Source: an uncultured Pseudomonadota bacterium (GTDB lineage: Bacteria; Myxococcota_A; UBA796; SXON01). From it: a stretch of 45,026 nucleotides of DNA. The DNA lies in assembly GCA_903959175.1 (NCBI GenBank), contig CAJBVW010000203.1, positions 1 through 45,026 on the forward strand, read 5' to 3'. Each line of letters starts with the position of its first letter. Position 1 is the first letter of the stretch. The notes below the pieces were generated by a model that made no database searches, was not told the DNA's origin, and saw only the letters and a list, made by a program, of their open reading frames with translations. Positions 10,152-41,146 of this stretch are shown here, one piece after another. The position numbers and the translations under genes were made by a program.

Positions 10152-10204
10152 TCCCAACTCCCAGCTTCGAACCCACCTATCCGACTGAACAAGGAACAAC
10201 TCCC

Positions 10205-10945
10205 ATGACCGCTCCTCTCTGGGCCCTCGTGACCTTCACCGCCGCCGGGGAATGCCTCGTCGACCGCACCTCGCTCCGCGCCTCCCTCGACGGGTTCCGC
10301 TCCACCAACGCCCCGAGCTTCGGGTCGGACTTCGACGGCGACGACGACGACGACTTCGGGGACGACCTCGGGGACGACCTCGGCAACGACGTCGGCGACG
10401 ACCTGGGCGACGACCTGGGCGACGACCTCGGCGACGACCTCGGCGACGACCTCGGCGACGACCTCGGCGACGACCTCGGCGACGAGATCGGGATGACGCC
10501 CGCGCAGCGCAAGCGCCGCCGCCTCGCGCGCCGGCAGAAGCGGCTCGAGGTCAAGAACCAGCGCCTCCAGCGGCGTCTCCGCAAGGCCAACAAGGGGAAG
10601 GTCGTGCAGCGCAACGTCACCGTGACCGGATCGGTCGCCACCTCCGTCGGCCAGTCCATGAGCGTGACCCTCACGCCCCGGACCAGCCTCCACCTGTCCA
10701 AGATCTTCGCGACCGGCGACACCAGCTCGACGATCAACACGATCATCTCGGGCGACGACCCGGTGGTGCTCGACAACCTCGACGCCGCGCTGCTCGCGCC
10801 GACGGCCTACCACGGCCCCGGCTTCGAGGGCCGCGTGCTCAAGGCAGGCGTCCCGGTCACCATCAACTACACGGCGGGCTCGACGACCACCGCGCTGAAG
10901 CTGTCCTTCTACGGCAAGGCGCGCGTCAAGTCCCCGCGTTGCTGA
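10205..10945 (+). CDS. Putative structural protein with Asp-Asp-Leu-Gly repeats and beta-rich C terminus
   Basis: This 246-aa product (AAGGA 8 nt before ATG) has three parts. After a short N-terminal segment come eleven tandem tetrapeptides of DDLG type (residues about 53-96). Next is a basic helix rich in Lys/Arg/Gln (RKRRRLARRQKRLEVKNQ). The C-terminal 110 residues look like a beta sandwich (LTPRTSLHLSKIFATGD, DDPVVLDNLDAALLAP, VPVTINYTAGSTTTALKL). The acidic and basic halves could pair within or between subunits. A second, frameshifted copy of the C-terminal part lies at 43348-43608, so the beta domain has been duplicated in this element. A capsid or spike role is inferred from the domain style and operon context; I cannot name a family. 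Confidence 0.7.
   Translation: MTAPLWALVTFTAAGECLVDRTSLRASLDGFRSTNAPSFGSDFDGDDDDDFGDDLGDDLGNDVGDDLGDDLGDDLGDDLGDDLGDDLGDDLGDEIGMTPAQRKRRRLARRQKRLEVKNQRLQRRLRKANKGKVVQRNVTVTGSVATSVGQSMSVTLTPRTSLHLSKIFATGDTSSTINTIISGDDPVVLDNLDAALLAPTAYHGPGFEGRVLKAGVPVTINYTAGSTTTALKLSFYGKARVKSPRC
10361..10492 (+). repeat. 12-bp tandem repeat encoding DDLG, 11 units
   Basis: Units of GACGACCTCGGC or close variants repeat eleven times in frame (DDLG, DDLG, NDVG, seven DDLG, DEIG). Such repeats change copy number readily by slippage, so length variation between related elements is expected. Confidence 0.9.
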
Positions 10946-10962
10946 TCGGACGGGGGTGAGCC

Positions 10963-11589
10963 GTGGGCGCCTGCAAGCTCTCCCGACGCTCCGGCACGGC
11001 GAAGCTCTCCGCTTCGCCGACCGCCGGGGTGGCCGGGACCGAAGGCGAGGTGCTCACGGCCCAGTCCGAGGGCCAGGGCGAGGGTGACTGGCGCATCCTC
11101 GACCTCTGGTCCGACGAGGGTTCCCCCTGGGAGGCCCGCGTCGTCTGGTCCGGTGGCGGGGGTGCGCTCCGCACGGCGCTCGTCAACGTGCCGAAGTGCG
11201 TCCGGGTCTGCGTCCACGCCACGATGATCCAGGTCTTCGGGGCGAACCTCTCGACCTCGGCGAACATCCAGGCGCGCGCGGCGATCGCCGACGGGTACTG
11301 CGACACCGAGAACCAGTGGACCGTTCGCGGCAACGTGCTGGCCCAGGGGCAGACGGTCAGCGCCGCCCCTCCGCCGTGGGCGAAGTTCGCCCGCCTCGAG
11401 CTGTCGGACAACACGCTCCTCGCCACGGCCTTCGTCGAGCTCCTCGACGCGAACGGCACCGCCCGTGGCCGGTACGCCGGCAACGCCCAAACGCAGCCGG
11501 GCGCGCCCATCGGCGATGCCGCCACCGTCCGCCTGGTGCTCCCCGGCGGCACCTACGCCTACCGCCTCGTCTTCCTTCTCCACCTCTGA
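10963..11589 (+). CDS. Putative beta-rich structural protein (208 aa)
   Basis: The frame begins at a GTG (VGACKLSRRSG as written, Met in vivo) 17 bp after the previous stop. The sequence alternates short hydrophobic strands with polar turns throughout (WRILDLWSDEGSPWEARVVW, FARLELSDNTLLATAFVELL, VRLVLPGGTYAYRLVFLLHL). This is typical of beta-sandwich or jelly-roll folds. No signal peptide, catalytic motif or transmembrane helix is present. Its size and place between two other beta-rich proteins make a capsid or vertex component plausible, but no homology is recognised and this is inference. An alternative is a secreted adhesin-like domain, which is less likely without an export signal. Confidence 0.65.
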   Translation: MGACKLSRRSGTAKLSASPTAGVAGTEGEVLTAQSEGQGEGDWRILDLWSDEGSPWEARVVWSGGGGALRTALVNVPKCVRVCVHATMIQVFGANLSTSANIQARAAIADGYCDTENQWTVRGNVLAQGQTVSAAPPPWAKFARLELSDNTLLATAFVELLDANGTARGRYAGNAQTQPGAPIGDAATVRLVLPGGTYAYRLVFLLHL

Positions 11590-11607
11590 TTTCCGAGGGC
11601 CTTCGCC

Positions 11608-12021
11608 ATGAAGTGCTACCCCAACCGATTTGGCACCAAGCTCCTGAGCATCCCGTCCACGGCGCAGGTCAACGTCACCACCAACGGGACCGCCTACCGC
11701 GTGTTCCCCGACGAGAACGACGGCCAGTCCAACGCCGCCCAGGACTACAAGGTCGTGGCGACGATGAACGTTGCAGGCGGCACCTCGCCCACCGCGCAGC
11801 TCATCCTCCAGGGCTCCGTCGACGGCAGCACCTGGATGGACATCGCCCCCGGCGCCCAGCGCTCGGCGGCCGGCACCTACAACGAGATCCTCGACCCGGC
11901 GAACGTCGGCGTCCTGCCCTGGGTCCGCGCCCGCCTCGTGCTCGGCGGCACCGCCCCCCCGAACGTGGACCTCACCGTCGAGCTCGTCTCGACCGGCGGC
12001 TTCCAGCTCGCGACCTCCTGA
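11608..12021 (+). CDS. Putative beta-rich structural protein (137 aa)
   Basis: The 137-aa product starts at ATG 18 bp after the upstream stop. It is almost entirely beta in pattern: AQVNVTTNGTAYRVFPDE, then LILQGSVDGSTWMDIAP and WVRARLVLGGTAPPNVDLTV. The phrase with SVDGSTWMDI followed by a VRARL strand resembles small decoration or spike domains found in some phage structural operons, an impression from pattern rather than a family assignment. It lacks export or membrane signals. With its two upstream neighbours it forms a block of three beta-rich proteins, the strongest candidates for coat components of any particle this operon makes. Confidence 0.65.
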   Translation: MKCYPNRFGTKLLSIPSTAQVNVTTNGTAYRVFPDENDGQSNAAQDYKVVATMNVAGGTSPTAQLILQGSVDGSTWMDIAPGAQRSAAGTYNEILDPANVGVLPWVRARLVLGGTAPPNVDLTVELVSTGGFQLATS

Positions 12022-12055
12022 TCCCCCAACCCTCGCATCCCCCCCGGACGTCGTC

Positions 12056-12637
12056 GTGAACATCACGGTCGCCCTCACCTTCAACGAACGCGACGCGGTG
12101 AGCCTGCTCAACTGGCTCGCCCGCTGCAACGCGCGCCTGCTCCGCGAGCGGCCGTCGCTGCCGTTGCTGTACGCGACGAGCGTTCGCTACGGGCGGGAGG
12201 AGGAGGAGACGTGGTCCGACTTCATCCAGCTGCTCGCGCAGGGCTGGGAGGACTGCGACGCGCTCGCCGCGGCACGCGCGGGTGAGCTCATCGCCCGCGG
12301 ATGGCGCGCCCTCTCCCCGCGCGACCCTGGCTACGCAGCCGCGAAGGCGGCCCGCCTTGAGTCCATCCCCGCCGAGGTCGCGCTGACGACCACGCTCCGC
12401 CCCGGCGAGCACGGCCTCTACCACTGCATCGTCCGCTACACCGTGGCCGGCACCGCCTGGTTCGACGACCCCTCGGCGCGCCTCGGGATGCTCCCCGAGC
12501 GCCTCGACGGGCAGGCGTGCCACGAGCGCATCGTCACCCGCGTCCGCCTCGCCGGCCTGCGCCGCGACCCCGAGCAGGCGCGCCGCCGCCCCCACCGCAC
12601 CCACCACGCGCGCCGCCCGCGGCGCCGGGAGTCCTGA
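12056..12637 (+). CDS. Putative Cys-His-Asp protease or transglutaminase-like protein
   Basis: I start at the GTG at 12056 (MNITVALTFNERDAVS), in frame with the longer shadow ORF. The ribosome site is weak. The 193-aa product contains QGWEDCDALAAARAGEL (Cys67), LYHCIVRYTV (His123) and WFDDPSARLGM (Asp137/138). Cys in a DC motif before a helix, then His on a strand, then Asp is the order of papain/transglutaminase-like enzymes, and a similar DCD...H...DPSxxLGM pattern occurs in phage structural operons. It may process or cross-link virion proteins, or cut peptidoglycan. The C terminus is very basic (RRRPHRTHHARRPRRRES), fit for binding DNA or acidic partners. The last base of the stop is shared with the next ATG (TGATG). 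Confidence 0.6.
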   Translation: MNITVALTFNERDAVSLLNWLARCNARLLRERPSLPLLYATSVRYGREEEETWSDFIQLLAQGWEDCDALAAARAGELIARGWRALSPRDPGYAAAKAARLESIPAEVALTTTLRPGEHGLYHCIVRYTVAGTAWFDDPSARLGMLPERLDGQACHERIVTRVRLAGLRRDPEQARRRPHRTHHARRPRRRES

Positions 12638-13443
12638 TGACCGCCTCCTCTCGCTTCATCCGTGCCCGCGTCGTCGGACGCGTCGAGTTCGCCGGCGACG
12701 GCGACACCTTCGTCGCCGGGCCCCGGCGCAAGCCCTCGAAGAAGGACCGGCAAATCCGCCGCCTCCTGCGGAAGGCGCGCGCCCTGAAGAAGCGCATCGC
12801 CCACCTCCGCATCCGCAAGCCGCTCGGCTGGAAGGGCGCGGTCAAGAGCGCCAAGACCAACCTCCGCGTGGTCATGAGCGACCTCAAGGCGCTCGGCTGG
12901 AAGCCCAAGCGGCCCGCTCGGGCGCGGAAGCCCGGCGAGGACGAGATGGACGCCGCCCTCGAGGAGATCCCCGAGGCCGAGCCCGGCGAGCCGGACGAGG
13001 ACATCGAGGAGCTCCCCGACGCCCCGGAGGAAGGCCCTTCGACCGAGGGCAACTGGCTCGACGGCTACGTCGGCGCCGACCCGGTGAAGAAGCCGAAGAA
13101 GAACCTCTGGCAGGAGGCGGGCAAGCTCCTCGCCGCGAAGTGGAGCGCCCCCGTTCCGCTCGGCGACGGCGCGCGCATCCAGACCCGGCCCGGCCAGCGG
13201 GCGATGGTCGCCACCGTCCGCCCCGGCCTGTTCATCGTGCAGCTCGTGTCCGACGACGCGGCGAAGAAGATCGCCGGGGACAACGTGGGCGTCCTCCCGC
13301 TGCTCCTCTACCCGCTGGTCAAGAACCAGGTGCAGAAGGCGCTGGCCCCGAAGCCCGCGGCCCCCGCCGCGCAGCCCGGCGCAGCCCCGGCCCAACCCGC
13401 CGCCGCGGGCGACCTCGGCTGCGACTACCCGAAGCGGAGCTGA
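12637..13443 (+). CDS. Unknown 268-aa protein with basic N terminus and acidic linker
   Basis: The ATG overlaps the preceding stop, so translation is coupled. The first 120 residues are strongly basic and helical (KPSKKDRQIRRLLRKARALK), consistent with binding nucleic acid. They are followed by an acidic linker (EDEMDAALEEIPEAEPGEPD). A C-terminal globular part contains VRPGLFIVQLVSDDAAKKIA and a hydrophobic stretch VLPLLLYPLVKN, and the end is Pro/Ala-rich. The layout resembles virion internal or scaffold proteins that condense DNA, but I recognise no family. No signal peptide is present. Confidence 0.6.
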   Translation: MTASSRFIRARVVGRVEFAGDGDTFVAGPRRKPSKKDRQIRRLLRKARALKKRIAHLRIRKPLGWKGAVKSAKTNLRVVMSDLKALGWKPKRPARARKPGEDEMDAALEEIPEAEPGEPDEDIEELPDAPEEGPSTEGNWLDGYVGADPVKKPKKNLWQEAGKLLAAKWSAPVPLGDGARIQTRPGQRAMVATVRPGLFIVQLVSDDAAKKIAGDNVGVLPLLLYPLVKNQVQKALAPKPAAPAAQPGAAPAQPAAAGDLGCDYPKRS

Positions 13444-13445
13444 CC

Positions 13446-14105
13446 GTGGCCACCTTCACCCTCCCGGTCAGCGCCGACGCCGTCCTCGCGCGGATGAACG
13501 ACATGCGGATCACCGCCGAGCAGTCGCTCGCGAGCGTCGAGGCCTACGCCAAGACCAACGTGCAGGCCCTCGCGCGCATCGTGCTCGGCTACCGCACCGT
13601 CGTCGCCGACACCGGCGCGCGGCTCGTGCGCCTGCAAGTCGCGGTCACCCAGGCGCTCGCGGCCAAGCCGGGCGACCCGACGCTCACGGCGCTGCTGAAG
13701 CGCACCGTCGAGATGCTCACCGCATGGAGCGCCCACGCGAAGGGCTACACCCAGTACGAACGGCCCGCGACCGCCGCGGAGAAGGGCGAGGCCGTGTCCG
13801 TCGGGTGGGCGGGCGTCGTCATCGCCGTCGCCGTCGCGGGCGCCGTCATCGCCGTCTCCTTTACCGGCGTGGCGTGGGCCGTCGTCCACTACAAGCACGC
13901 GCAGACCCTCTCGGACGAGGTCGCCATCGTCGAGCGGAACCCGGCGCTGGCGGACGCCCTCGCCCGCATCAACTCCACCGCCCCGAGCGCGCCCACGACC
14001 GACCCCGCCAACCCCGGCGGCGGCGGCGGCTGGGGCTGGCTCCTCGCCGCCCTCGGCGTCGCCGGGGCTGCCGTCTACCTCCTCCCCAAGTGGGGCAAGG
14101 GCTGA
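13446..14105 (+). CDS. Putative membrane protein of the virion-like operon (219 aa)
   Basis: The frame starts at a GTG 2 bp after the previous stop. The N-terminal 110 residues are helical (DAVLARMNDMRITAEQSLAS). A long hydrophobic segment (VGWAGVVIAVAVAGAVIAVSF, about residues 118-147) is followed by a soluble stretch. After a Gly-rich linker comes a second membrane helix (WLLAALGVAGAAVYLLP) ending in a short basic tail KWGKG. Two membrane spans, N-terminal helices and no cleavable signal suit an integral inner-membrane or virion-membrane protein. It is one of at least three small membrane proteins in this operon, the main reason to suspect a membrane-containing particle. Confidence 0.65.
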   Translation: MATFTLPVSADAVLARMNDMRITAEQSLASVEAYAKTNVQALARIVLGYRTVVADTGARLVRLQVAVTQALAAKPGDPTLTALLKRTVEMLTAWSAHAKGYTQYERPATAAEKGEAVSVGWAGVVIAVAVAGAVIAVSFTGVAWAVVHYKHAQTLSDEVAIVERNPALADALARINSTAPSAPTTDPANPGGGGGWGWLLAALGVAGAAVYLLPKWGKG

Positions 14106-14109
14106 TCCC

Positions 14110-15636
14110 ATGAGCACGACCACCCACGAGCGTTTCCGCCTCCAGTTCGTCGGCGCCGACGAGGACGTGCCGCGCCTCCTGCTCGCCTACGGGCGCGCGT
14201 GCGGGGGCGAGATCGCCTTCGTCATGCGGCCCCGCGACAACCTCGCGCTGCTCGTCCACCAGGTGAAGAAGCAGCCCGCGAAGGTGTGGCGCACCGACCT
14301 CGGGCTCGCGCCCTCGCACCCGCCGGAGCTCGACATCGACGCGACCGCCGCCGTCGCCGAGATCCGCACGATGAAGGCGAGCCCGTCCCCAGCGGGCCCC
14401 GCCACGCTCAAGGGCAAGTGGGCCGGCGTGCTGGTGTGCGACAACGGCACGCCGCGTGTCACGCTCGAGCGCAAGGTCGCCGCCTACGGCACCCTCCAGC
14501 TCGTGTCGCTCGCGGACGGGCGCTGGCAGGCGCGCTTCGACCGCGCCGCCCGCTGGTTCAGCAAGGCCCGGCAGGAGACCGTCGAGCGGTCGAGCCTCGC
14601 CGACGCCATCACGGCGGGCATGGGCCTCGTCGTCGGGCTCGTGAGCGAGGCGTGCAGCTTCCGCGACACCCGGCGCCGCAACACCGTCGATGCCGAGTAC
14701 GCCACCCAGCACCCCTACACCCCGCCGCGCGAGGCGAAGGACCCCACCGAGCGCTACGCGCCGCGGTCCTCCTTCCGCGCCGTGGCGCAGGCGGACGGCT
14801 GGGTGGTGGTGAACGAGGTCGGCGCCGTCGTCGCGCGGTTCGGCCTCCGCGAGAAGGGCAAGGCCACGAAGCACGCCAGCGCCCTCACCCGCGGGAAGGA
14901 GGACACGCGATCCGTGTCCTCCTCGCCCTCGGCGTCCGTCACGCCGGACATCGCGTCCGCGTTCGGAATGACCGGGATGCCGGGCCTCTCGCTCGTGCCC
15001 GCGCTGGCCGACGTGCCGATGCCCGACTCCCCGGTCGGCGCCCCCGCGCTCGGGCGCGAGGCGACCGCCACCGAGGCCGAGGCCGACGCGCTGGTCGAGG
15101 AGGCCAAGGAGAGCTGGGGCGCCGCCGACGCGCCCGCGCTTCTCGGCCGAGCCGCCAAGCTGCTCCGCCACGCCGAGGCGCTGGTGAAGTCGCCGCGCTG
15201 CATCGGTCCCGAGCAGAAGATGGCGTGGGAGGACCTGCGCCGGGGCGCCGACGCCTACACCCAGGCCCGCGATGCCCTCCTCCGTGGGGAGAAGCCCGAC
15301 ATCGTGACCACGCTGCGGCGCATCGCCGAACGCGTGTCGCTGGCCGCCGCCCGCGCGGCGAAGTCGTGCGCCGCCGGGCAGCAGAAGATCGGGAAGGCGG
15401 CCCGGTCCTCGGCCGACATCGCGGCCGGGATCACCGTCCGCGAAACGCCCTTGGTGACGATGCAGCCCGTATGGCCGCCCGCCGCCGCGCCGCAGTCCGT
15501 GCCGACGACGACGAAGCCACCGCGGACCCGGAAGGCGAAGGCCCCCGAGGTGGACCCGGCGAAGGACCAGGCGCTCGTCAACGCCTTCGCGGACGCCATC
15601 AAGCAGGCCGCGCAGGCGATGGGAGGTGGGGCGTGA
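14110..15636 (+). CDS. Unknown 508-aa protein of the virion-like operon
   Basis: The ATG follows the previous stop by 4 bp. The N-terminal third alternates strands and helices (FRLQFVGADEDVPRLLLAYG, KWAGVLVCDNGTPRVTLERK, AYGTLQLVSLADGRWQARFD). The centre has a beta-like motif (GWVVVNEVGAVVARFGLREK). The C-terminal half is helical and Ala-rich with Ser/Thr and Pro linkers (SWGAADAPALLGRAAKLLRH, IAERVSLAAARAAKSCAAGQ). No enzyme motif, signal or membrane helix was found. It is the largest product in the block of presumed structural genes, so a minor structural or assembly role is possible, but there is no direct evidence. The next gene overlaps its stop by 4 bp. Confidence 0.6.
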   Translation: MSTTTHERFRLQFVGADEDVPRLLLAYGRACGGEIAFVMRPRDNLALLVHQVKKQPAKVWRTDLGLAPSHPPELDIDATAAVAEIRTMKASPSPAGPATLKGKWAGVLVCDNGTPRVTLERKVAAYGTLQLVSLADGRWQARFDRAARWFSKARQETVERSSLADAITAGMGLVVGLVSEACSFRDTRRRNTVDAEYATQHPYTPPREAKDPTERYAPRSSFRAVAQADGWVVVNEVGAVVARFGLREKGKATKHASALTRGKEDTRSVSSSPSASVTPDIASAFGMTGMPGLSLVPALADVPMPDSPVGAPALGREATATEAEADALVEEAKESWGAADAPALLGRAAKLLRHAEALVKSPRCIGPEQKMAWEDLRRGADAYTQARDALLRGEKPDIVTTLRRIAERVSLAAARAAKSCAAGQQKIGKAARSSADIAAGITVRETPLVTMQPVWPPAAAPQSVPTTTKPPRTRKAKAPEVDPAKDQALVNAFADAIKQAAQAMGGGA

Positions 15637-15890
15637 GCCGCTGGTTCCTCGTTACCGGCCCGGCGCTGCTGCTCCTGTCGTGCGCGGTCGCGTTCGCCCA
15701 GGATGGGGGACCGGTTCCCGGCCCCGCGAGTTCGATGCCGAGCGCCGACTTCTTGCTCTCGATGGGGCCCTACGGGGCGCTCGTCTGGGGGGCCTACCTG
15801 CTCGGGAAGGGGGTGAAGGTCACGGTGCAGATTGAGCTTTCGGAGCGAGATCGCGAGCTGATCGAGCAACTTGGGAAGGAGGCGGCGTGA
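15633..15890 (+). CDS. Small membrane protein, possible holin or virion membrane protein
   Basis: This 85-aa product starts at a GTG overlapping the preceding TGA (GTGA). It has an N-terminal hydrophobic segment ending in an Ala-X-Ala-type site (WFLVTGPALLLLSCAVAFAQ) that could be a cleavable signal. A second hydrophobic stretch follows (YGALVWGAYLLGKGVKVTV), then a charged C terminus (ELSERDRELIEQLGKEAA). Size and topology suit a holin, and a lysozyme-like gene lies downstream at 21.8 kb, but a small virion membrane protein fits equally well. The stop overlaps another GTG (15887) whose frame soon runs into the antisense lipoprotein gene; the gene that once followed may have been cut off there. 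Confidence 0.6.
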   Translation: MSRWFLVTGPALLLLSCAVAFAQDGGPVPGPASSMPSADFLLSMGPYGALVWGAYLLGKGVKVTVQIELSERDRELIEQLGKEAA

Positions 15891-16671: not shown

Positions 16672-19600
16672 ATGAACGCCGCCGCCCAACTCCTCGACGC
16701 CATCGTCCCCATCGTCCGCACGCGCCTTCCGCGCGGCGTCGACGTGGACTACCTCGACGACTTCCTCGACCGGAACCGCTTCGCCCTCGAGGCGGTCATC
16801 GAGCAGAACCTCGGGCCGCTCCTCGCCCGCATGCAGGTGGCGAACCGCCCCTTCGCGCCCGACGAGGACATCCCCGAGCTCTGGACCGCGAGCAAGCGCA
16901 CCGCCGCCAACATCGCCGCGATGGCCACCGCCGCCGCCCTCTACGCGCAGCGCCGCCTCCCCAACGCCGACGAGCGCGCCGTCCTCGCCGGGTACTCCGG
17001 TTGGGGCGGGCTCTCCATCGAGGCGGCCTCCGGCAAGTTCCCGCCGGGCTTCCCCGCGCCTGAAACCCGCGGACTCATTCATGAATTCTACACGCCGAGC
17101 AAGGTGGCGAAGGAAGTCGCGCGCGTCGTCGCCCCGCTCGTCCACGCCCTCCCGCAGGACGGCGAGACGGTCCACGCGCTGGAGCCCTCGGCGGGCATCG
17201 GCCGCTTCCTCCGCGCGTTCGAGGCGGTCCCCGGCCTGACGTGGCACGCCGTCGAGTGGTCCACGCTCTCCTCGCTGATGCTGAAGGCGCTCCGGCCCGA
17301 CCTCGACCTGACCAACGCCCCGTTCGAGCGCTGGGTGCGCGAGAAGGGCGCGGGGGCCGCCGGCCGCCTCGGCCTGGTCGTCTCCAACCCGCCCTACGGC
17401 ATCCGGGGCGCGTCCGTCGCGGAGGACCCGGATCGGGCCTACCGCGAGAAGATGGCGTACCACTACTTCCTCCGCCGCGGGCTCGACCTGCTTGCCCCGG
17501 ACGGGCTGGGCGTCTTCCTCGTCCCCGGCGGCTTCCTCACGAGCCGCACCGCGCAGTTCACCGCGCTCCGAGAGAAGGTGCTGAAGCGCCACCACCTCGC
17601 CGCCGCGTACCGCCTCCCGAGCATCAACGAGAAGGGCCGCGAGGCCATCTTCCCCGGCGCGATGCTGGTCACCGACCTGCTCTTCTTCCGCGCGCGCGGG
17701 GGCGAGCTCGACGCAGTGGACGCCTCCGACGCGGAGATCGTGGCCGGGGGCTACTTCCGGCAGTTCCCGCGCCACATCCTCGGTCGCGAGGTCGGCGAGG
17801 ACCACGGCGAGGACGACCAGACCTCCAAGCCCCGCTGGGGCTACCAGGTCCAGGGCGAGTTCACCCGCCTCCCCGACCTCGTGGAGCGCCCCGTGTGCGG
17901 CGACTGCAAGGTCGTCGCGTTCCCGTCCCGCGGGAAGCAGGCCGCGGACGCGGCGCCAGCCGGTCGCGTGGGCGTCACCCGCGTCACCGAGGCTGACGTC
18001 ACCGACCTCCCGCGCGAGCTCGCCAGTGCGGTCCTGCTCGGCCTCCGGGTAGACCGCTACCTCGCGCTCGTCGCGGCGGAGAACGCCGAGGAGCCGCCCC
18101 TCCTCTGGCCGGAGCTCCACGCGGCGCTGACCTCGTGGCACGCGAGCAACGGCAATCCGCACGCCAACGTCGACCTCGTGAAGCTCGCCCGCGGCGGCAA
18201 CACCGGCGCCGAGCGGTTCCTCTCCGCCTTCGACCGCGCCGGCCACCTGATCGACGGCCTCCGGCGCAAGCCCCCCGTGTTCGAGCCCCGCTACACCGGG
18301 CGCGTCGACGACGTGGTGGCGCAGGCCGAGCACCTCTACCGGACGGCGCGCATGCTCTCCGTGCGCGAGCTGGTGGAGTACCACACGAGCCTCGGCGGGC
18401 CGTTCGCGCCCGACCAGGCGCGGGCGAAGGTCCTCGCCGCAGGCTGGTGCCTCGACGGTGACACCTGGGACGAGCTCTTCCCCGCCGAGGTGTACCTCAC
18501 CGGCGCGCTCTGGCCGAAGATGGACCGGGTGATGGCCCGGCCCGCCGACGCGCAGGCGAAGGCCCAGGTCCAGCGCCTCCTCGACGCGATCAAGCCCGCG
18601 ATCTTCGACGACATCGAGGGCGTGAGCGCCCGGCAGGGCTGGGTGCCGCTCGACCTCGTCGCGGAGTGGGTGAACAGCACCTACACCGGGTACGACGACG
18701 TCACGTTCGTGCGCCAGGGCGGCCTCGTGGCGCCGAAGGGCTGGCAGTACGACCAGATGTCGAAGAAGGGAAACGCCGGGGAGATGCACCCCGAGGTGTT
18801 CCTCATCCTCGGCTGGATCAACCACGACAAGACGATGTTCTCGCCGTCCAAGAAGTTCGACGACGACAACGAGAAGGACATCGACAAGCTCCGCATGAAG
18901 AAGGCGGCCGAGTGGGACGCCAGCTTCAAGGGCTTCGCCGGGGCGACGCCCGAGCGTCGTCTCGCCATCGAGCACGCCTACAACCGGCAGTTCCGCGGCT
19001 ACGTCGCCCCGACGTACACCGCCGAGCCGCTGTCGATCGCGCGCTGGAAGAAGGACGGTCCGCGCCTGCACCCCCACCAGGTCGCCGGCGCCCGACGCGT
19101 CCTCGCCAACCGGGGCGGCCTCCTCGCCTTCGACGTGGGCGTCGGCAAGACGTACACGGGCATCGCGACGCTCGCCCGCGCCCGCCAGGAGGGCTGGTGC
19201 AAGCGGCCGGTCGTGCTCGTCCCCAATTCCATCGTGTGGAAGTGGGAGGCGGACATTCGCCGGGTGCTGCCCGACTACCGCATCGCCGTCATCGGCTCGA
19301 AGAAGAAGGTCATCAGCCGCGGAGAGCGGAAGGGTCTCGCGACGAGCGACACCGACACGCCGCAGGAGCGCGCCGAGAAGTGGACCCGGTTCCAGGCCGG
19401 CGAGTACGACGTGGTGCTGCTGACCTACACCGCGCTCGGGCGCACGCGCATGAACGAGAAGGCCGTCCGCGTCTACGCGGAGCAGTGCGAGGCCATCCAG
19501 CGCGAGGTGGCGCTGCGCCGTCGCAACGCGGCGAAGCGGAAGAAGCTCTCCGAGCGCGACGAGGCCATCCTCCGCGAGGGCATGGCCGCCTGGGTCGCCC

Positions 19601-21822
19601 AGCAGATGGAGCTCGCCGACGGCTGGGAGTACGACCCCGGCATCGCGTGGGACGACATCGGCGTCGACCTCCTCATCGTGGACGAGGCACAGAACTATAA
19701 AAACCTGTATCTACCCGAGGATCGCGAGGGCGGTGTCCCCCGCTTCATGGGCAACCCGGGCGACGGCTCCAAGCGCGCGTGGCAGCTCGACTTCCGGTGT
19801 GCGGCCGTCCGCCGCAAGACCGGCGGCGGCGGCGTGGTGCTCCTCTCCGCCACCCCGGCGAAGAACAGCCCGCTCGAGTTCTACAACCTGATCCAGTACG
19901 TCGACCCCGACGCCTGGCGCCGGATGGGCATCCGCGACCCGGAACAGTTCATCGACCGGTACCTCCGCATCGAGATCAAGCCGGTGGTGACCCCGAGCAT
20001 GGAGGTCGAGGAGCGCGGCGCCGTCGTCGGGTTCCAGAACCTGCACGAGCTGCGCGACACCATCCTCCGCTACGGCGAGTTCAAGACGGCCGAGGACGTC
20101 GGCCTGAAGCTCCCCGAGCCCAAGGTCGAGATGGTCGAGGTCGACATGGACGCCGGCCAGGACGCCAAGTACGACCGCTACGTCCGCGAGATCGAAGCCG
20201 CGCTGAAGTCGGACGACCCCGGCGAGAAGGCGAAGATCCTCGGCCTGCTCGCCCGCATGGCACTGGTGGCCATCCACTCCCAGCTCGACCAGGGCTACGG
20301 GTGGAAGAACGCCGAGCAGGTGAGCGACTCCAACTCGCCCAAGTTCGAGGCCCTCGCCGAGCGGGTGCTGGCGAACCGGACGTGCGGCCACATCGTGTTC
20401 GTCGACAACGTGGCCGCCCACCGCTGGGTCAAGATGGTGCTCGTCAACGCGGGCATCGCGGCCGACCGCATCGGCGTCCTGAACGCCGAGGTCGCGCCCA
20501 ACGCCGCCGACCGCCAGCGCATCGCCAAGGAGTTCAACGGCGAGCCCGAGACGGAGACCGCGCCGAAGTTCGATGTCGTGATCGCCAACGCCATCGCCTA
20601 CGAGGGCATCGACCTCCAGACGCGCACCTGCGCCATCCACCACCTCGACCTCCCGTGGGAGCCGGCCACGCTCCAGCAGCGCAACGGGCGCGGCGTGCGG
20701 CAGGGAAACACCCTCTCCGCCATCGCAATCTACTACTACTTCGCGCGCCGCAGTCAGGACGGGCTCCGCTTCAACCTCATCCAGGGGAAGCGCGGGTGGA
20801 TGACGGAGCTGCTCAAGTCGCAGAACCGGGACACCAACAACCCCGGCGCGCAGATGGACATGGGGCCGGAGGAGATCCTGCTCCTCATCTCGCGCAACCC
20901 CGAGCAGACCCGCGCCCGCCTCGAGGCCGTCCGCGCCCAGCGTGAGGCCGAGGCGAAGAAGAAGATCGCGACCGAGGCGTCGAAGCTCCTCCGCGCCATC
21001 AACGCCCGGTTCCGCAACGCGGAGCGCACCCGCGACGGCGTGGAGGCCGCGCGTCTCCGCGGCGAGGCGGAGGAGCGGCTGAAGCACCTCGCGCGCGTGA
21101 ACGTCGAGGCCTGGCCGTGGGCCGCCGCGAGCGTCGTCGTCCGCGAGACGCCCGTGCTCGTCCCCGAGGGCGGCGGGCCGCTCTACGAGGGGCTCCGGGT
21201 CGGCGTCCCGAGCGCGTGGAACGCGAGCAAGGTCGACTACGTGGAGTTCGGCAAGGTCACCAAGGACGGGCAGATCGCCTTCCGCGCCGCCGGGGAGGCC
21301 GGGTGGAAGCTCCTAAGGGCCGACTCGGCGCAGTTCGCCGCGCTCAAGCCCGAGCACTACGGCGTGACGTTCCCCGCCGACGAAGAGGGCTTCACGCTGA
21401 AGGCCGTGGGACAGGTCGCCGGCGACCGCCTCCGCTACTCCGGCGACTGGCCCGGCCTCGGCTGGCACCACGCCCCCGACGACTGGGTCGAGCGCACCTG
21501 GCCGCAGGTCGCGGACACCGTGGTCGGGGCACTCGCGAAGGTCAGCTACTACAACCAGCAGGCGCAGAAGATCCCCGTCGTGGCGCCCACCGGCATGCGG
21601 ATCGTCAACGCCGGCGCGGCCAACGGTACCGCCGGGGTCACCGTGCTCGCGCCCACCGAGAGCGGCTGGCGGGCGTTCCTCGACGCGGCCCCGTCCAGCG
21701 GCCTGAAGTTCGGCGAGCTCGCCGAGGCCGGGCGCTGGTGGTGGGGGCGGACGATCCCGCGGAACCTGCTCTCGGCCGACGAGGGCGAAGAAGGCGACGA
21801 CGCGTCCCGGGTGGCGTCGTGA
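16672..21822 (+). CDS. Giant N6-adenine methyltransferase-SF2 helicase fusion (DarB-like)
   Basis: I start at ATG 16672 (MNAAAQLLDAIVPIV), with AGGAG 8 nt upstream, nine codons after the longer frame. The 1716-aa product begins with a small domain (residues about 11-48) also found in two other proteins of this window. A gamma-type methyltransferase follows, with motif I EPSAGIGRF (171) and catalytic NPPY (239-242). An SF2 helicase has Walker A DVGVGKT (821-827), DEAQ (1004-1007), LLSATPAKN, and motif VI QRNGRGVRQG (1336-1345). About 370 residues of unknown C-terminal sequence end it. This architecture is known from phages and plasmids, including phage P1 DarB, a virion-packaged anti-restriction protein. 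Both catalytic centres look intact. It overlaps the next gene by 4 bp. A packaged, genome-protecting role is inferred by analogy. Confidence 0.88.
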   Translation: MNAAAQLLDAIVPIVRTRLPRGVDVDYLDDFLDRNRFALEAVIEQNLGPLLARMQVANRPFAPDEDIPELWTASKRTAANIAAMATAAALYAQRRLPNADERAVLAGYSGWGGLSIEAASGKFPPGFPAPETRGLIHEFYTPSKVAKEVARVVAPLVHALPQDGETVHALEPSAGIGRFLRAFEAVPGLTWHAVEWSTLSSLMLKALRPDLDLTNAPFERWVREKGAGAAGRLGLVVSNPPYGIRGASVAEDPDRAYREKMAYHYFLRRGLDLLAPDGLGVFLVPGGFLTSRTAQFTALREKVLKRHHLAAAYRLPSINEKGREAIFPGAMLVTDLLFFRARGGELDAVDASDAEIVAGGYFRQFPRHILGREVGEDHGEDDQTSKPRWGYQVQGEFTRLPDLVERPVCGDCKVVAFPSRGKQAADAAPAGRVGVTRVTEADVTDLPRELASAVLLGLRVDRYLALVAAENAEEPPLLWPELHAALTSWHASNGNPHANVDLVKLARGGNTGAERFLSAFDRAGHLIDGLRRKPPVFEPRYTGRVDDVVAQAEHLYRTARMLSVRELVEYHTSLGGPFAPDQARAKVLAAGWCLDGDTWDELFPAEVYLTGALWPKMDRVMARPADAQAKAQVQRLLDAIKPAIFDDIEGVSARQGWVPLDLVAEWVNSTYTGYDDVTFVRQGGLVAPKGWQYDQMSKKGNAGEMHPEVFLILGWINHDKTMFSPSKKFDDDNEKDIDKLRMKKAAEWDASFKGFAGATPERRLAIEHAYNRQFRGYVAPTYTAEPLSIARWKKDGPRLHPHQVAGARRVLANRGGLLAFDVGVGKTYTGIATLARARQEGWCKRPVVLVPNSIVWKWEADIRRVLPDYRIAVIGSKKKVISRGERKGLATSDTDTPQERAEKWTRFQAGEYDVVLLTYTALGRTRMNEKAVRVYAEQCEAIQREVALRRRNAAKRKKLSERDEAILREGMAAWVAQQMELADGWEYDPGIAWDDIGVDLLIVDEAQNYKNLYLPEDREGGVPRFMGNPGDGSKRAWQLDFRCAAVRRKTGGGGVVLLSATPAKNSPLEFYNLIQYVDPDAWRRMGIRDPEQFIDRYLRIEIKPVVTPSMEVEERGAVVGFQNLHELRDTILRYGEFKTAEDVGLKLPEPKVEMVEVDMDAGQDAKYDRYVREIEAALKSDDPGEKAKILGLLARMALVAIHSQLDQGYGWKNAEQVSDSNSPKFEALAERVLANRTCGHIVFVDNVAAHRWVKMVLVNAGIAADRIGVLNAEVAPNAADRQRIAKEFNGEPETETAPKFDVVIANAIAYEGIDLQTRTCAIHHLDLPWEPATLQQRNGRGVRQGNTLSAIAIYYYFARRSQDGLRFNLIQGKRGWMTELLKSQNRDTNNPGAQMDMGPEEILLLISRNPEQTRARLEAVRAQREAEAKKKIATEASKLLRAINARFRNAERTRDGVEAARLRGEAEERLKHLARVNVEAWPWAAASVVVRETPVLVPEGGGPLYEGLRVGVPSAWNASKVDYVEFGKVTKDGQIAFRAAGEAGWKLLRADSAQFAALKPEHYGVTFPADEEGFTLKAVGQVAGDRLRYSGDWPGLGWHHAPDDWVERTWPQVADTVVGALAKVSYYNQQAQKIPVVAPTGMRIVNAGAANGTAGVTVLAPTESGWRAFLDAAPSSGLKFGELAEAGRWWWGRTIPRNLLSADEGEEGDDASRVAS

Positions 21823-22787
21823 GCCGGGCCAACAACACCCCGCTGCTGCTCGGCGCCGGGGCCATCGGGCTGCTGGTCCTCGCCGCGGCCGCGTCGCCCT
21901 CGGGACGCCGGGCGGCCAAACAACTGGAGGAACGTGTGGAGAGCTTCGTGACCGATTGGATTCCAACCCTGCTCCGCAAGACGAGCCAGCACGAGGGCAA
22001 CTTCTGGTCGGTCCAGGAGAACAAGGACGGCAACGGCGTCAGCTACGGCATCCTTCAGTGGACGCAGAAGTCGGGCTCCCTCGGCGGCCTCCTCCGCGCG
22101 ATGGCCGATGCCGACCCGTCCGAGTTCGCGCGCATCTTCGGGCCGAGCTGGCGGAAAGTGCTCGACGTGACCGCGCGCGCCAGCATGGAGCCGGTGGACG
22201 GCGTGGCGCTCTGGGCCGGGGACTGGGTGGGCCGCTTCGCGAAGGCCGGTCGCCTGCCGATCTTCCAGGAGGTCCAGACCCGCGTCGCCATCGCGTCCGA
22301 CTACATGAGCGGGGCCATCGAGATCGCCCGCCTGCTCGGTGTCCGCTCCGAGCGGGCGATGACCATGTACTACAACCGCACCGTCCACCAGGGCGCGAGC
22401 GGCGCGCTCGGGCCCGCGAAGCGGCTCGCCGCCTGGTACGCCGAGGACCCGACGCGCCGCCCGGCCGAGCCCAAGGACGTGCTCGCGCAGTACGCCTGGA
22501 CCTGCGCCTCGAAGTTCCGCCGCACCACCCCGCCCGCGCGTCGGAACTACAACGACGACGGGAACATCTGGTGGTCCCCGGTGGCGACCGAGTGGAGCGA
22601 GCTCGGCATCGGCAACCACCGCGTCCGCCGCGTGGCCGTCTCCGGCGTGTGGCACGCCCTGACCGGCCCGCCGTCGAAGCCGTGGAGCCTCTACGACCTC
22701 ATCACGAAGCGGTCGAGCGACATCCTCACCGACCCTACCCTCCGCGATGCGCCAGTGGACCTTGGCGTCGCCAAGCTCGCGGGTTGA
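21819..22787 (+). CDS. Membrane-anchored lysozyme-like muralytic enzyme
   Basis: Starting at a GTG that overlaps the helicase stop (GTGA), the 322-aa product has an N-terminal membrane anchor (NTPLLLGAGAIGLLVLAAAAS) followed by a catalytic-looking domain. Glu59 in KTSQHEGNF, then Asp70 and SYGILQW (75-81), match the lysozyme superfamily pattern in which a Glu precedes a [ST]xGxxQ strand. The remainder is helical and Trp-rich. GH46 chitosanase-like and GH23-like muramidases are the nearest comparisons, but I cannot choose between them. In this operon it probably opens peptidoglycan during entry or release. A membrane-anchored lytic enzyme is also found in membrane-containing phages (PRD1 P7). 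It is the last gene of this co-directional block. Confidence 0.7.
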   Translation: MSRANNTPLLLGAGAIGLLVLAAAASPSGRRAAKQLEERVESFVTDWIPTLLRKTSQHEGNFWSVQENKDGNGVSYGILQWTQKSGSLGGLLRAMADADPSEFARIFGPSWRKVLDVTARASMEPVDGVALWAGDWVGRFAKAGRLPIFQEVQTRVAIASDYMSGAIEIARLLGVRSERAMTMYYNRTVHQGASGALGPAKRLAAWYAEDPTRRPAEPKDVLAQYAWTCASKFRRTTPPARRNYNDDGNIWWSPVATEWSELGIGNHRVRRVAVSGVWHALTGPPSKPWSLYDLITKRSSDILTDPTLRDAPVDLGVAKLAG

Positions 22788-23535: not shown

Positions 23536-24555
23536 GTGCGGACCCTTGACCTGTTCGCGGGCGCGGGCGGGGCGGCACTCGGCCTCCACGAGGCCGGCTT
23601 CGAGCACGTCGCCTGCGTCGAGCGCGACCCCTCGGCCGCCGCGACGCTGCGGGCCGCGGGCTTCCCCGCCGTCGAGGCCGACGTGCGCGACCTCGACTAC
23701 GCCGCGCTCGCTGGCACCATCGACGTGCTCTGGGCTTCGCCGCCCTGCCAGGCGTGGTCGCAGGCCAACCAGCACGCTCAGCGGAAGGGCGCGGCCGACG
23801 TAGAGCGCAACGGCTGGCCGTGGACGCTCCAGGTCGTGCGGGTCGTGCGGCCGCGGTGGGCGATCTTCGAGAACGTGCGGAACGCCCGGCCCTACGTCGA
23901 CCGGTACGTCGTCCCCGAGCTGCGGAAGCTCTACTCCCACGTCTCCGTGTGGCTGCTCAACGCCGCCGACCACGGCGTGCCGCAGAGCCGCACCCGGCTC
24001 TTCGTCGTCGCCGGGCCGCGCCCGGTCGCGGCGCCGCCCATCGCCCCGCGGCGGACGATGCGCGACGCCATCGCCGTGCCGTGGGACCGGCCCGCGCCGT
24101 GCGTGATGACGAACGAGTGGAAGGGCCGCCCGACCGACCCGTCGTGGTGGAAGAAGCTGAACAACGCGAGCGACGCGCTCGCCATCGCCACGAAGGGCGC
24201 CCGGCGCAAGCTGACCCTCGGGGAGTGCGCGGCGCTCCAGACCTTTCCCGCCGGCTACCCCTTCGCGGGCGCCGTCGAGGACCGGTACCGGCAGGTCGGC
24301 AACGCCGTCCCGCCCACCCTCGCCGCCGCCGTGGCCCGTGCGATCCGGGTCGCCGAGGAGGGCGCCGCCACCATCCGCGAGAGCCTGCCGGCCCTCGGCG
24401 CGTTCGCCGACCGGGTGCTCGCTCGAGCGGTGGCGCTTCTGCGCGCCCATCCGCCCTATGGGATCGACCCCGAGGACGTGGACGGGTTCGTCGCGCGCCA
24501 CGGGGACCGGCTCCGCGACCTCGTCACCACCACCCTGAACCGGAGGGCCCCATGA
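23536..24555 (+). CDS. C5-cytosine DNA methyltransferase with extra C-terminal domain
   Basis: I start at GTG 23536 (MRTLDLFAGAGGAALG) because GGGAGG lies 5 nt upstream and the domain begins there. The 339-aa enzyme transfers methyl groups from SAM to cytosine C5. Motif I is DLFAGAGG, motif IV is ASPPCQAWSQ with catalytic Cys71, motif VI is FENVR, motif VIII is QSRTRLF and motif X is YRQVGNAVPP. The target-recognition region is short. After motif X come about 65 extra residues ending in a domain (PPYGIDPEDVDGFVARHGDR) also present at the C terminus of the next protein and the N terminus of the giant helicase. No restriction enzyme is adjacent, so it is a solitary modification enzyme, probably protecting the element's DNA. 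It overlaps the next gene by 4 bp (ATGA). Confidence 0.9.
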   Translation: MRTLDLFAGAGGAALGLHEAGFEHVACVERDPSAAATLRAAGFPAVEADVRDLDYAALAGTIDVLWASPPCQAWSQANQHAQRKGAADVERNGWPWTLQVVRVVRPRWAIFENVRNARPYVDRYVVPELRKLYSHVSVWLLNAADHGVPQSRTRLFVVAGPRPVAAPPIAPRRTMRDAIAVPWDRPAPCVMTNEWKGRPTDPSWWKKLNNASDALAIATKGARRKLTLGECAALQTFPAGYPFAGAVEDRYRQVGNAVPPTLAAAVARAIRVAEEGAATIRESLPALGAFADRVLARAVALLRAHPPYGIDPEDVDGFVARHGDRLRDLVTTTLNRRAP

Positions 24556-27317
24556 CCTGCCCCTGCCAACACGCCCTGCCCGTCCCCGGCGCCTTCCCCA
24601 AGGCCGCCGGCCGCCTCTCCATCGACCGCGCCGCGCTCCGCCGCGAGCTCGCCGACGACGCCAGTATTCGCGAGGCGATGACCGCCAAGGCGACGGGCCG
24701 CCCGTCCGCGAATGTGTCGGTCCTCTGGGGATACTTCACAAAGGCCGTTTACAAGTCGGGCGACCTCCCGTGGCTCGCCACCCGCGAGGCCCTCCAGAAC
24801 AGCATCGACGCCGTGAAGGCCGCCGTCCGCGCCCGGAAGATCAAGTCCGAAGATGGCTTCTTCGGCGTCCGGTGGAACGAGGAGGAGCGCTCCCTCTCCT
24901 TCGAGGACAACGGGATCGGCATGGACGCGGACACCGTACTCACCAAGTTCCTGTCCATCGGCGAGAGCGGGAAGCGCGACGCCGCCGACTCGAGCGAGGC
25001 CGCGGGCGGCTTCGGCGTCGCGAAGGCCGTGATCCTCGGCGTGTCCCGGTCGTTCCGCTGGCGGATGCACACCCGCGACAACCTCGCCGTCGCCGATGGC
25101 GCCGACGCCGAGGTCCGCATCTTCGACGCCGAGCCGCGCGCCGGGACGGTCCTGACCGTCTACGACGTCGACCCCGACTTCATCCGCTACTGGGACCGCG
25201 CCCGCGGCGTGTACGTCGGCGTCGAGGACCGCCTCCGCGAGCTCCTCGCTGCCAACGACCTCCCCGGCATCCGCCTCTACTTCGGCGACGAAGAGGTGAA
25301 GCCGATGTTCAGCCGCCGGGGCGGCTCGCGCGTGTCGGTCGAAGGCTCCTGGGGCGAGGGCACCACCGCAACCGTCAAGGCGTACCGGCGCGCGCCTGGC
25401 GACCGCGGAGGCGCCTACTACCTGCGGCTCGGAGGCCTCTTCCAGTTCAAGGTGCCCGCCCAGCGGAACGGGCTGAAGGCCGACGTCGTGGTCGACCTCA
25501 CCACGACCGTGCGCCCTGGCCAGCGCGGCTACCCGATGAACGCCGCCCGCGACGGCCTGCAGGACCAGGCGCAGTGGACCTTCTCCGACCTCGTGGACGA
25601 AGTGGAGCGGGAGAACGAGTCCGTCGGACGGAGCGAGGACGACGAGTTCCTCGACGCCGACGACGACGACGCCGACGGCGGGCAGGAGCTCGCCGACCAG
25701 ATGGCGGAGGCCTTCGCCGACCAGGACGTGCGGAAGGCCATCGCCGCTGCAGCGGGCGGCATCGCCGATTTCTACGGCGAGCAGGCGAAGTACGCAGGAG
25801 TCGAGGAGCCGGTGGCCTCGCTCGCCCCGCGCGGGAGCAAGGCGGTGCAGGACGGCGACGCCCCCGAGCGCGCCTGGGTGCTCCCCGCCGGAATGACCGT
25901 CGCCGCCGGCACCACCCCGGTGGAGGCCGACGCCGAGGCCCCGTCCAACGTCCAGGCCGCCAAGGTGCTCCGCGCCGTGCTCACCGAGGCCGACGAGGCG
26001 GGGCGCGCCGCTGGCGGCATCCGCACGGTCATGGTCACCGAGCAGGTGGACCAGGCGCTCCGCCGCGCCGAGGTCGGGCAGGACCTCGACGGCTGGCAGG
26101 CGCAGGCGGTCGAGGCCGCCATTGAGCGCGCGGCCGAAGCCGCCCTCGCCCCCGGCGGCGGCGGGCTGATCCAGGCCGTCTCGGTGTCGAGGGCCACCGG
26201 CGCGCTGGACGCCCTCGTGCCGAAGTGGGCGAAGGCGCTCGACCGCGCCGAGGGCCGCAAGGTGCGGAACCCCTTCGGGAAGTTCGCCGGCATGCGGATC
26301 AGCAAGAAGACCTACGACCGCCAGCGCGCCTACCGCTTCCGCAAGGGCTACGCGAAGTGGCTGCCGCACCTGCTCGCCTGGGACGGCACGCTCCGGCTCG
26401 TCGCCGCCGAGGCCCGCATCCGCCGCACCTTCCGCCCGGGCTTCGTGCTCGACGACAACGTCGTCGCCGAGGCCGTCGAGCGTCCCGGCGGCAAGCGCTT
26501 CCTCTTCATCCACCCCGACCGTTTCGCGCAGGTGGTGAAGGCCCACAAGGAGCGGCCGCTCGCGGTCGCGGCGTTCCTCCACGGCGTCGCCGTCCACGAG
26601 CTCACGCACCTCGATGGACTTATGGGCGAGGGCCACTCGGAAGAATTCGTGGCGCGCCGTGAGGATCTCGGCGCGGCGACGGCCCACCTCCTGCCCGCGA
26701 TCGCGGTCCTCGTCGGGAAGCTCCTCGGCGTGGGCGAGCGCGAGAGCGAGGAGGCGAAGCGGGTCGCGCGGCTGGAGCGGGAGCTGGAGAAGGCGCGGGC
26801 GACGGTGAAGGAGCAGCGGGCGCGGATCGTGGAGATGGAGCGAGGCGCTGCCCCCACGCGCACCGAGGGCACGCGGCTCGTGTGGTCGAACCTGCGCGAG
26901 TGGCTCGACGCCTGGGCGGAGCTCCACCGACGGCGCATCAGCGGCGCCCGCATCGCGGCGACGCGGCAGCACGTCAACGCACTGACCGCCGCGGTCGTCG
27001 AGGGGGGCAGCGTCGACGAACTCGACGAGTTCGAGGGGGTGCTCGGGAGCGCGAACGTCACGCCGCCGCGGGGGCAGCGGGCGGGGCACCATACGACGCA
27101 GCTGAGGGACGCGATCGACCGGGCGCGGGTGCGGCAGCGCGGGCGGGGGCGGGTGGACCCGGAGCGGCTGCTCGAGGCCGCCGTCGGGGCGCTGCGAGCT
27201 CGGCCGCCGGCGGGGGTTAGCGCGGCGTATGTCGCGGGGTTCGTCGCGAGGAACAGGGCGGCGCTGCTGGGAATTGTGCGGGGGGCGTTCAACGCGGCAT
27301 GCCGGGCAGCCCCCTAA
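24552..27317 (+). CDS. GHKL ATPase fused to an HExxH metallopeptidase-like domain
   Basis: The 921-aa product is translationally coupled to the methyltransferase. Residues about 60-370 form a GHKL (Hsp90/MutL/MORC-type) ATPase, with the N box EALQNSIDA (E79, N83, D86), FEDNGIGMD (119-125) and GGFGVAK (152-158). An acidic linker (DDEFLDADDDDADGG) leads to an Ala-rich helical region. A zinc-protease-like domain then has VHELTHLDG (H682, E683, H686) and GHSEEFV, a plausible third-ligand segment. A coiled coil (RLERELEKARATVKEQRARI) follows, and the C-terminal 45 residues repeat the PxGV-type domain of its two neighbours. I know of no characterised protein with this exact combination. ATP-gated proteolysis or protein remodelling near DNA is possible. 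The left end of an IS1380 element begins only 6 bp after the stop. Confidence 0.8.
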   Translation: MTCPCQHALPVPGAFPKAAGRLSIDRAALRRELADDASIREAMTAKATGRPSANVSVLWGYFTKAVYKSGDLPWLATREALQNSIDAVKAAVRARKIKSEDGFFGVRWNEEERSLSFEDNGIGMDADTVLTKFLSIGESGKRDAADSSEAAGGFGVAKAVILGVSRSFRWRMHTRDNLAVADGADAEVRIFDAEPRAGTVLTVYDVDPDFIRYWDRARGVYVGVEDRLRELLAANDLPGIRLYFGDEEVKPMFSRRGGSRVSVEGSWGEGTTATVKAYRRAPGDRGGAYYLRLGGLFQFKVPAQRNGLKADVVVDLTTTVRPGQRGYPMNAARDGLQDQAQWTFSDLVDEVERENESVGRSEDDEFLDADDDDADGGQELADQMAEAFADQDVRKAIAAAAGGIADFYGEQAKYAGVEEPVASLAPRGSKAVQDGDAPERAWVLPAGMTVAAGTTPVEADAEAPSNVQAAKVLRAVLTEADEAGRAAGGIRTVMVTEQVDQALRRAEVGQDLDGWQAQAVEAAIERAAEAALAPGGGGLIQAVSVSRATGALDALVPKWAKALDRAEGRKVRNPFGKFAGMRISKKTYDRQRAYRFRKGYAKWLPHLLAWDGTLRLVAAEARIRRTFRPGFVLDDNVVAEAVERPGGKRFLFIHPDRFAQVVKAHKERPLAVAAFLHGVAVHELTHLDGLMGEGHSEEFVARREDLGAATAHLLPAIAVLVGKLLGVGERESEEAKRVARLERELEKARATVKEQRARIVEMERGAAPTRTEGTRLVWSNLREWLDAWAELHRRRISGARIAATRQHVNALTAAVVEGGSVDELDEFEGVLGSANVTPPRGQRAGHHTTQLRDAIDRARVRQRGRGRVDPERLLEAAVGALRARPPAGVSAAYVAGFVARNRAALLGIVRGAFNAACRAAP

Positions 27318-33235: not shown

Positions 33236-33236
33236 T

Positions 33237-39445: not shown

Positions 39446-39606
39446 GCGCGCCTCCGAAAGGCCTGGCGGCGAGGGTCGCTGACGGCCCGCGAGGCCTGCT
39501 TCCAGCGGGCTTCGTAGGGGTCGCGCCGGGGAGCGACGGGCGGCGCCACCGGCGGGCGGACGGGGTGCTGCCCGGCCGGCAGCGGCGGCGCGGCCGGCGG
39601 GGTCAC
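39442..39606 (-). CDS. Small Pro/Arg-rich protein between antirepressor and primase
   Basis: This 54-aa frame is not listed alone in the ORF track. It starts at a GTG overlapping the stop of the BRO-like gene (GTGA), and its own stop overlaps the primase start (GTGA), so it is exactly fitted between two coupled genes. The product has a Pro-rich N terminus (TPPAAPPLPAGQHPVRPPVA) and a basic C-terminal helix (PYEARWKQASRAVSDPRRQA). It may be a small partner of the primase or merely keep ribosomes moving along the operon. No family is recognised; support comes from the double overlap. Confidence 0.5.
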   Translation of the reverse strand: MTPPAAPPLPAGQHPVRPPVAPPVAPRRDPYEARWKQASRAVSDPRRQAFRRRA

Positions 39607-41121: not shown

Positions 41122-41146
41122 CCAGAGCGGGGCCGACGATACGTGC

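Follow-up and report, generated by a model that had tools for sequence, protein, structure and literature searches.

What would a mobile element gain from a protein that carries a GHKL ATP-binding site at one end of its chain and an HExxH zinc site towards the other? The question is raised by a gene at 24552..27317 (+) of contig CAJBVW010000203.1, from an uncultured bacterium of the Myxococcota, whose 45,026 nucleotides form the window analysed here. We call its 921-residue product, which begins at an ATG codon, GHKL-zincin. The original prediction had described an intact GHKL site, an HELTH motif and a coiled helix in this chain, together with a translationally coupled C5 methyltransferase gene; all of these are indeed present, and the residues of the ATP and zinc sites are invariant in 15 family members. 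The fold and the architecture of the protein are well supported, and we infer that it acts as a protease. As to its purpose, we give roughly even odds (about 0.5) to the reading that mobile elements use GHKL-zincin for counter-defence or for their establishment, with a clamp gated by ATP handing over a protein target, which may be bound to DNA, to the protease.

ATP site and zinc site in one chain

The open reading frame is real and intact. The chain runs from an N-terminal GHKL domain through a putative transducer and an acidic linker to HELTH, a coiled helix and a C-terminal tail, with HELTH lying about 600 residues beyond the ATP site. In the family alignment, whose 15 members are 56-78% identical to the window protein, E79, N83, D119, G121, M124, the GGFGVAK box, H682, E683, H686 and H695 do not vary; since in addition HExxH turns up in only 1.5% of shuffles of the window protein, the motifs are not due to chance. 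The median ratio of nonsynonymous to synonymous substitution rates (dN/dS) is ~0.22 for the whole protein but falls to 0.13 over the zincin; the gene is thus under purifying selection, and the zincin domain is its most constrained part.

The ATP-binding domain occupies residues ~50-180 (24699..25091, +) and has every feature expected of a GHKL protein: the ExxxN N-box from E79 to N83 (EALQNSIDA), the DxGxG motif G1 at D119-M124 (DNGIGM) and the glycine box G2 at G152-K158 (GGFGVAK). The NCBIfam HSP90 profile PRK14083 matches it with E 8.7e-10, its best solved relative is HtpG (2ior, E 6.3e-6), and hhalign aligns the window family with HtpG-like relatives with a probability of 98.0; by sequence, then, the module is closest to Hsp90/HtpG. 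The protein is not a full-length Hsp90, as its score of 37.7 bits falls far short of the NCBIfam cut-off (455) and the match is confined to residues 77-156. While the ATP-binding domain is common to both, the C-terminal dimer domain of Hsp90 is not recognised in GHKL-zincin, which has the putative protease and the coiled coil at that position.

The putative transducer or middle domain (residues 181-345; 25092..25586, +) ends in YPMNAARDGLQ, in which N330 and R333 are invariant and Q337 nearly so. In Hsp90, the NxSRxxLQ element of the middle domain supplies a catalytic arginine, and the segment in GHKL-zincin may be a counterpart of this element. The more distant matches in Clostridia are mostly HtpG-like proteins of ~640 residues without a zincin, and among 68 such HtpG-type relatives (L034-L101) HExxH occurs in 2 only, both times inside a His-rich run.

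The zincin domain, supported by an AlphaFold2 model and Foldseek, spans residues 572-730 (26265..26741, +). It contains the HELTH motif (residues 682-686; 26595..26609, +) and, eight residues further on, His695 (26634..26636, +), which is invariant in every relative covering the site and is proposed as the third zinc ligand (HExxH-x8-H); E704 is likewise invariant, but His695 was judged the better candidate. A model of the isolated domain, built from 4 sequences, reached a predicted local distance difference test score (pLDDT) of 79.4 and a predicted template modelling score of 0.73, with HExxH falling in the helix at model positions 97-115. The top four Foldseek matches in the PDB were EcxA (4l6t), abylysin, jannalysin and YbeY (probabilities 0.96-1.00), all of which we take to be HExxH metal-dependent hydrolases, and SprT-like proteins were among the best viral matches (0.99-1.00). 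No Pfam family matches the zincin domain of the window protein, and a PDB sequence search with the zincin profile gave nothing relevant; among the homologues, one plasmid protein matches the Pfam WLM and YgjP-like models and a haloarchaeal one matches TIGR04338. Based on the conserved H682, E683, H686 and H695, the modelled fold and these matches in homologues, assignment to the zincins, of a SprT/WLM/YgjP-like kind, is well supported. The original prediction was to be abandoned if modelling put HELTH in a non-metallopeptidase helix lacking a third ligand; what emerged is a zincin-like fold with a candidate ligand.

Spartan/SprT, Wss1/WLM, YgjP and the minigluzincins have this fold and the HExxH...H ligand pattern in common with GHKL-zincin, and to our knowledge the chains of all these proteins lack a GHKL ATPase module. 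An enzyme in which a Spartan/Wss1-like protease is joined to a clamp regulated by ATP would be new in design.

Behind the zincin follows a coiled-coil-like helix (residues 733-763; 26748..26840, +), a helix in both the full-length and the domain models and weakly matched by coiled-coil Pfam families. The next module (residues ~765-866; 26844..27149, +) is optional, being missing from several orthologues. It weakly matches part of an LPD1-domain protein of a Cupriavidus plasmid, and its near-identity between the window protein and an otherwise divergent paralogue (C406) suggests recombination.

Relatives on plasmids and a viral contig

The window protein is not alone in its architecture. Searching with the zinc domain only, we obtained weak matches in conjugative plasmids from Pseudomonas and Stenotrophomonas; the genes are annotated 'ATP-binding protein', and their products have a GHKL domain first and a zincin last. 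All 17 plasmid GHKL proteins examined contain the pattern HExxH-x5..9-H-x3-F/Y, which arises in 40 of 36000 shuffles, so that a His equivalent to His695 stands at the corresponding place in each of them, at variable spacing. They come from Pseudomonas, Stenotrophomonas, Burkholderia, Paraburkholderia, Methylibium, Variovorax, Xanthomonas, Photobacterium, Acinetobacter, Bosea, Rhizobium and the haloarchaeon Natribaculum, all but the last being proteobacteria; because the members from Acinetobacter, Bosea, Rhizobium and Natribaculum were retrieved via the GHKL half only, the presence of the zinc site is not a product of the sampling. In Acinetobacter, the GHKL genes have 'M48 metallopeptidase' neighbours, which suggested a split version of the protein; the idea was dropped, as those GHKLs have a zincin of their own.

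A 178-kb viral contig (L182) encodes a zinc domain 46% identical to that of the window protein, again behind a GHKL and with the HExxH...H...F signature seen in the plasmid proteins. It was retrieved from the viral collection only with an alignment of the zincin half; the whole protein, the family alignment and the GHKL half found no relatives there, and no relatives turned up in the curated phage collection, whether the query was the window protein or its zincin, the viral homologue or a mega-plasmid member. A gene for a DarB-like helicase lies near the viral homologue, and a 2443-residue gene adjoins it (L182:2-7330, -), possibly for a giant polyvalent protein. Comparing groups by hhalign, the zincin halves align with a probability of 96.4 (E 1.1e-9) and the GHKL halves with 98.2; scores are low, however, for some pairings among the small groups, and a single origin of all groups does not follow.

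No named family or defence profile covers the window, plasmid or viral proteins, and no PADLOC family at all matches the window GHKL-zincin. The component domains and zincin proteins of mobile elements are known; the GHKL-zincin combination, and the terminal tag described below, appear undescribed, in that the openly accessible literature searched yielded no description of either, which is not proof of absence. The order itself recurs widely: the proteins that have it have gone unnoticed under the label 'ATP-binding protein', both on the viral contig and on plasmids of the conjugative and mobilizable types, among them plasmids of plant pathogens and resistance plasmids.

The plasmid copies lie near genes for topoisomerase III/IA, ssb, primase, virB11/virD4 or a C5 methyltransferase. 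Most of those examined have no methylase, and we therefore rejected the methylase as an obligatory partner; the combination also occurs away from methylase genes. On the Pseudomonas putida plasmid p12969-2 (L183:2992-7080), a C5 methylase, a 92-residue open reading frame and GHKL-zincin follow one another, an echo of the order in the window.

Neighbours, tag and proposed function

In the window, GHKL-zincin directly follows an orphan C5 cytosine methyltransferase gene (23536..24555, +; PF00145, E 1.6e-44, with PCQ, ENV and QSRTR motifs). The stop codon of the one and the start codon of the other overlap by 4 nt as ATGA, preceded by GGAGG, which bears out the predicted coupling. The same overlap recurs in ~9 other loci, with a short gap in the remaining ones, and a C5 methyltransferase lies directly upstream in ~23 of the 26 loci that show the upstream gene. 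In one locus (L032:8211-9731), a 506-residue protein without a Pfam or PHROG match takes the usual position of the methylase. Further upstream lies the gene for a DarB-like protein of 1716 residues (16672..21822, +), which combines an Eco57I-type N6 methylase with an SNF2 helicase and matches phrog_11801 (E 2.8e-159) and the DarB-like antirestriction family phrog_10089 (E 1.2e-72).

These three proteins have a terminal tag of ~42 residues in common (PPxGVxxxYVxxFVxRNR), located at the C-terminus of GHKL-zincin (27168..27293, +), the C-terminus of the methyltransferase (24418..24540, +; E 5.5e-19) and the N-terminus of the DarB-like protein (16690..16815, +; E 2.1e-19). All 11 tag matches in the home genome fall on genes of these three kinds or their fragments. 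The tag is present in 32 of 71 genomes of the class, where its unusual carriers are again nearly all DarB-like proteins, methyltransferases or GHKL-zincins; the exceptions in relatives are DpdA (Pfam E 2.2e-14), a Mom-like/XF1762 protein, a PAPS-reductase-like protein and one short fragment. As tagged proteins of recognised function mostly modify or protect DNA, the tag places GHKL-zincin, by association, in a counter-restriction set; that it serves as a co-delivery signal is our guess. In one paralogue (L113:6843-9665), a hemerythrin domain apparently follows the tag (PF01814, one family member, E 4.2e-7).

The DarB-like and orphan methyltransferase neighbours, the common tag and the occurrence of the architecture on plasmids and a viral contig together favour a counter-defence role. 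We suggest that ATP binding would close an N-terminal clamp of the Hsp90/MutL type, which would hold or remodel a protein client, possibly a DNA-bound one, or close on DNA; since the ATP module is nearest to Hsp90, closure on DNA is only one of two alternatives. The clamp would bring its client to the C-terminal SprT/WLM-like zinc protease, which would cut it. On invading DNA, the likely purpose would be to establish the element in a new cell: host proteins that block its DNA on entry, or attack it, would be removed or disabled. The tag would probably route the tagged set to one place, for instance a particle or the element's own DNA. We infer the ATP gating, the target, the counter-defence function and the role of the tag alike.

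The closest working parallel, by analogy, is ArdC of plasmids R388 and pSa, with other polyvalent metallopeptidases. Like GHKL-zincin, these are proteins of mobile elements with a C-terminal Spartan-like zincin, found on conjugative plasmids, and ArdC too is proposed to act in the recipient cell. ArdC, however, joins its zincin to a DNA-binding domain, whereas GHKL-zincin has the GHKL ATPase instead and gives no Pfam match to the ArdC N-terminal domain; the third ligand is Glu in ArdC and proposed to be His in GHKL-zincin. The paper on polyvalent proteins makes no mention of GHKL. A DarB or SNF2-DNA methylase polyvalent module, as in phage P1, neighbours GHKL-zincin in both the window and the viral contig, and in the window the two share the tag; DarB itself has neither a GHKL nor a zincin.

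Several observations weigh against the counter-defence reading. The assignment argues from guilt by association, and no DNA-binding domain was recognised in GHKL-zincin. The full-length AlphaFold2 model (4 sequences), with a pLDDT of 39.8, is too poor to place GHKL and zincin relative to each other, and the Foldseek E-values for the zincin are modest (best 0.0016 viral, 0.022 PDB) despite probabilities near 1. The tag is absent from the viral homologue on L182 and from the plasmids searched and thus cannot account for the family as a whole. Finally, the protease activity of ArdC is dispensable for antirestriction (PMC7213743).

The main rival, which we consider rather improbable, is that GHKL-zincin is a DNA-protein-crosslink or DNA-maintenance protease like Spartan or Wss1, clearing relaxase or topoisomerase adducts or replication blocks from the element's DNA during transfer or replication. 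Its SprT/WLM-like fold would fit, as would plasmid copies beside topoisomerase III/IA, ssb and primase genes or inside a conjugation operon, and the third ligand of Spartan is a His, as proposed here, where that of ArdC is a Glu (PMC7213743). The tag, however, groups GHKL-zincin with DNA-modification and antirestriction enzymes, and in the Myxococcota and viral members the ATP module is nearest to Hsp90, which suggests that the clients are proteins and not DNA. We see still less likelihood in a maturation protease of the element, one that processes tagged polyvalent or structural proteins before delivery, as has been proposed for the DdrB metallopeptidase of P1. Polyvalent zincins are predicted to self-process (PMC5512222), and the synteny with DarB-like and putative virion genes would agree with this, but other members lie on plasmids that lack such genes, and the GHKL half, unneeded for simple self-processing, is kept throughout. 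It is less plausible again that the GHKL clamp is the working part, with the zincin serving in binding or as a structural element: ArdC sets a precedent for this (PMC7213743), yet GHKL-zincins retain all catalytic residues from the Myxococcota to a haloarchaeon, in the very region that is most constrained. Least probable of all is that the element carries GHKL-zincin as defence cargo, be it a toxic effector that senses DNA or an abortive-infection protein. GHKL ATPases are known from restriction and defence systems of bacteria (PMC2292703), and a restriction-modification cluster lies nearby in the window, but GHKL-zincin has no PADLOC or NCBIfam defence match, no antitoxin-like partner was seen, and its gene belongs to the conserved core, outside the variable cargo. 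Thus, of the two functions in the original prediction, the anti-defence device is favoured by neighbourhood, tag and plasmid and viral occurrence, while nothing points to a DNA-sensing effector or toxin.

Two further systems resemble GHKL-zincin in its ATP module. The MORC/paraMORC restriction GHKLs likewise combine a GHKL with a putative transducer beside DNA methylases; GHKL-zincin differs in having a zincin and no nuclease and in its Hsp90/HtpG-nearest ATP module, and, whereas MORC operons include a restriction endonuclease and an SFII helicase, no endonuclease is conserved beside it in relatives and the only SNF2 helicase lies inside the DarB-like protein. The T4 rIIA-type proteins are also phage-borne GHKLs with a variable C-terminal domain, different from the zincin found here; the viral homologue matches phrog_2979 (RIIA) with E 8e-4 over the GHKL only, and the window protein has no RIIA PHROG match at E 0.1.

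Extending the counter-defence reading, we speculate, with more doubt than belief, that GHKL-zincins form a new class of ATP-gated proteases with which plasmids, viruses and virus-like elements strip or destroy proteins on incoming DNA in newly entered cells, and that the tag is a portable co-delivery signal for a counter-restriction kit of DarB-like protein, C5 methylase, DpdA, Mom-like protein and GHKL-zincin. If the protein acts against host defences, plasmid survival on entry becomes testable by a point mutant, and the tag would offer a direct handle on the proteins co-delivered by such elements.

The element around the gene

Synteny in the core of the element extends across the class: three small genes that point leftward and about nine that point rightward are followed by those for the DarB-like protein, a lysozyme-like protein, the C5 methylase and GHKL-zincin, and then by variable cargo. 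The element occurs in several copies per genome, with the order of the last four genes usually kept. The lysozyme-like gene (21819..22787, +), identified by synteny and a weak, below-cut-off match to PF01374, may encode a lysozyme- or chitosanase-like protein with an N-terminal membrane segment. The block of small genes (9537..15890, +), kept in relatives, is possibly for virion structural proteins; because part of it has relatives on a 77-kb viral contig (L181), the element is likely virus-like, although no capsid or packaging enzyme was identified in it. One gene of this block (12056-12637, +) encodes a 193-residue protein with a relative on L181 and no Pfam match, whose conserved EDCD, YHC and DDPSARLGM segments resemble a Cys-His-Asp triad; it is possibly a cysteine protease of the element.

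Directly downstream of GHKL-zincin lies a DDE_Tnp_1_4 transposase gene (27483-28781, +), and a likely DDE transposase is encoded near the start of the window (530-1810, -). The restriction cargo (29081-35491, +) comprises a C5 methylase, an Eco29kI-type endonuclease, a second, MORC-like GHKL (30908-33235, +), an Mrr/ResIII helicase and a small protein, and resembles the MORC-type restriction-modification operons of Iyer 2008. On the opposite strand (36382-42331, -) follow a DUF927 primase-helicase, a BRO-like antirepressor and a SoFic-type Fic protein, whose genes probably serve replication and accessory functions. A resolvase-like serine recombinase gene (44635-45024, +) is interrupted by the contig end, and a stretch at 43349-43528 (+) repeats part of the gene at 10205-10945 and is probably a remnant.

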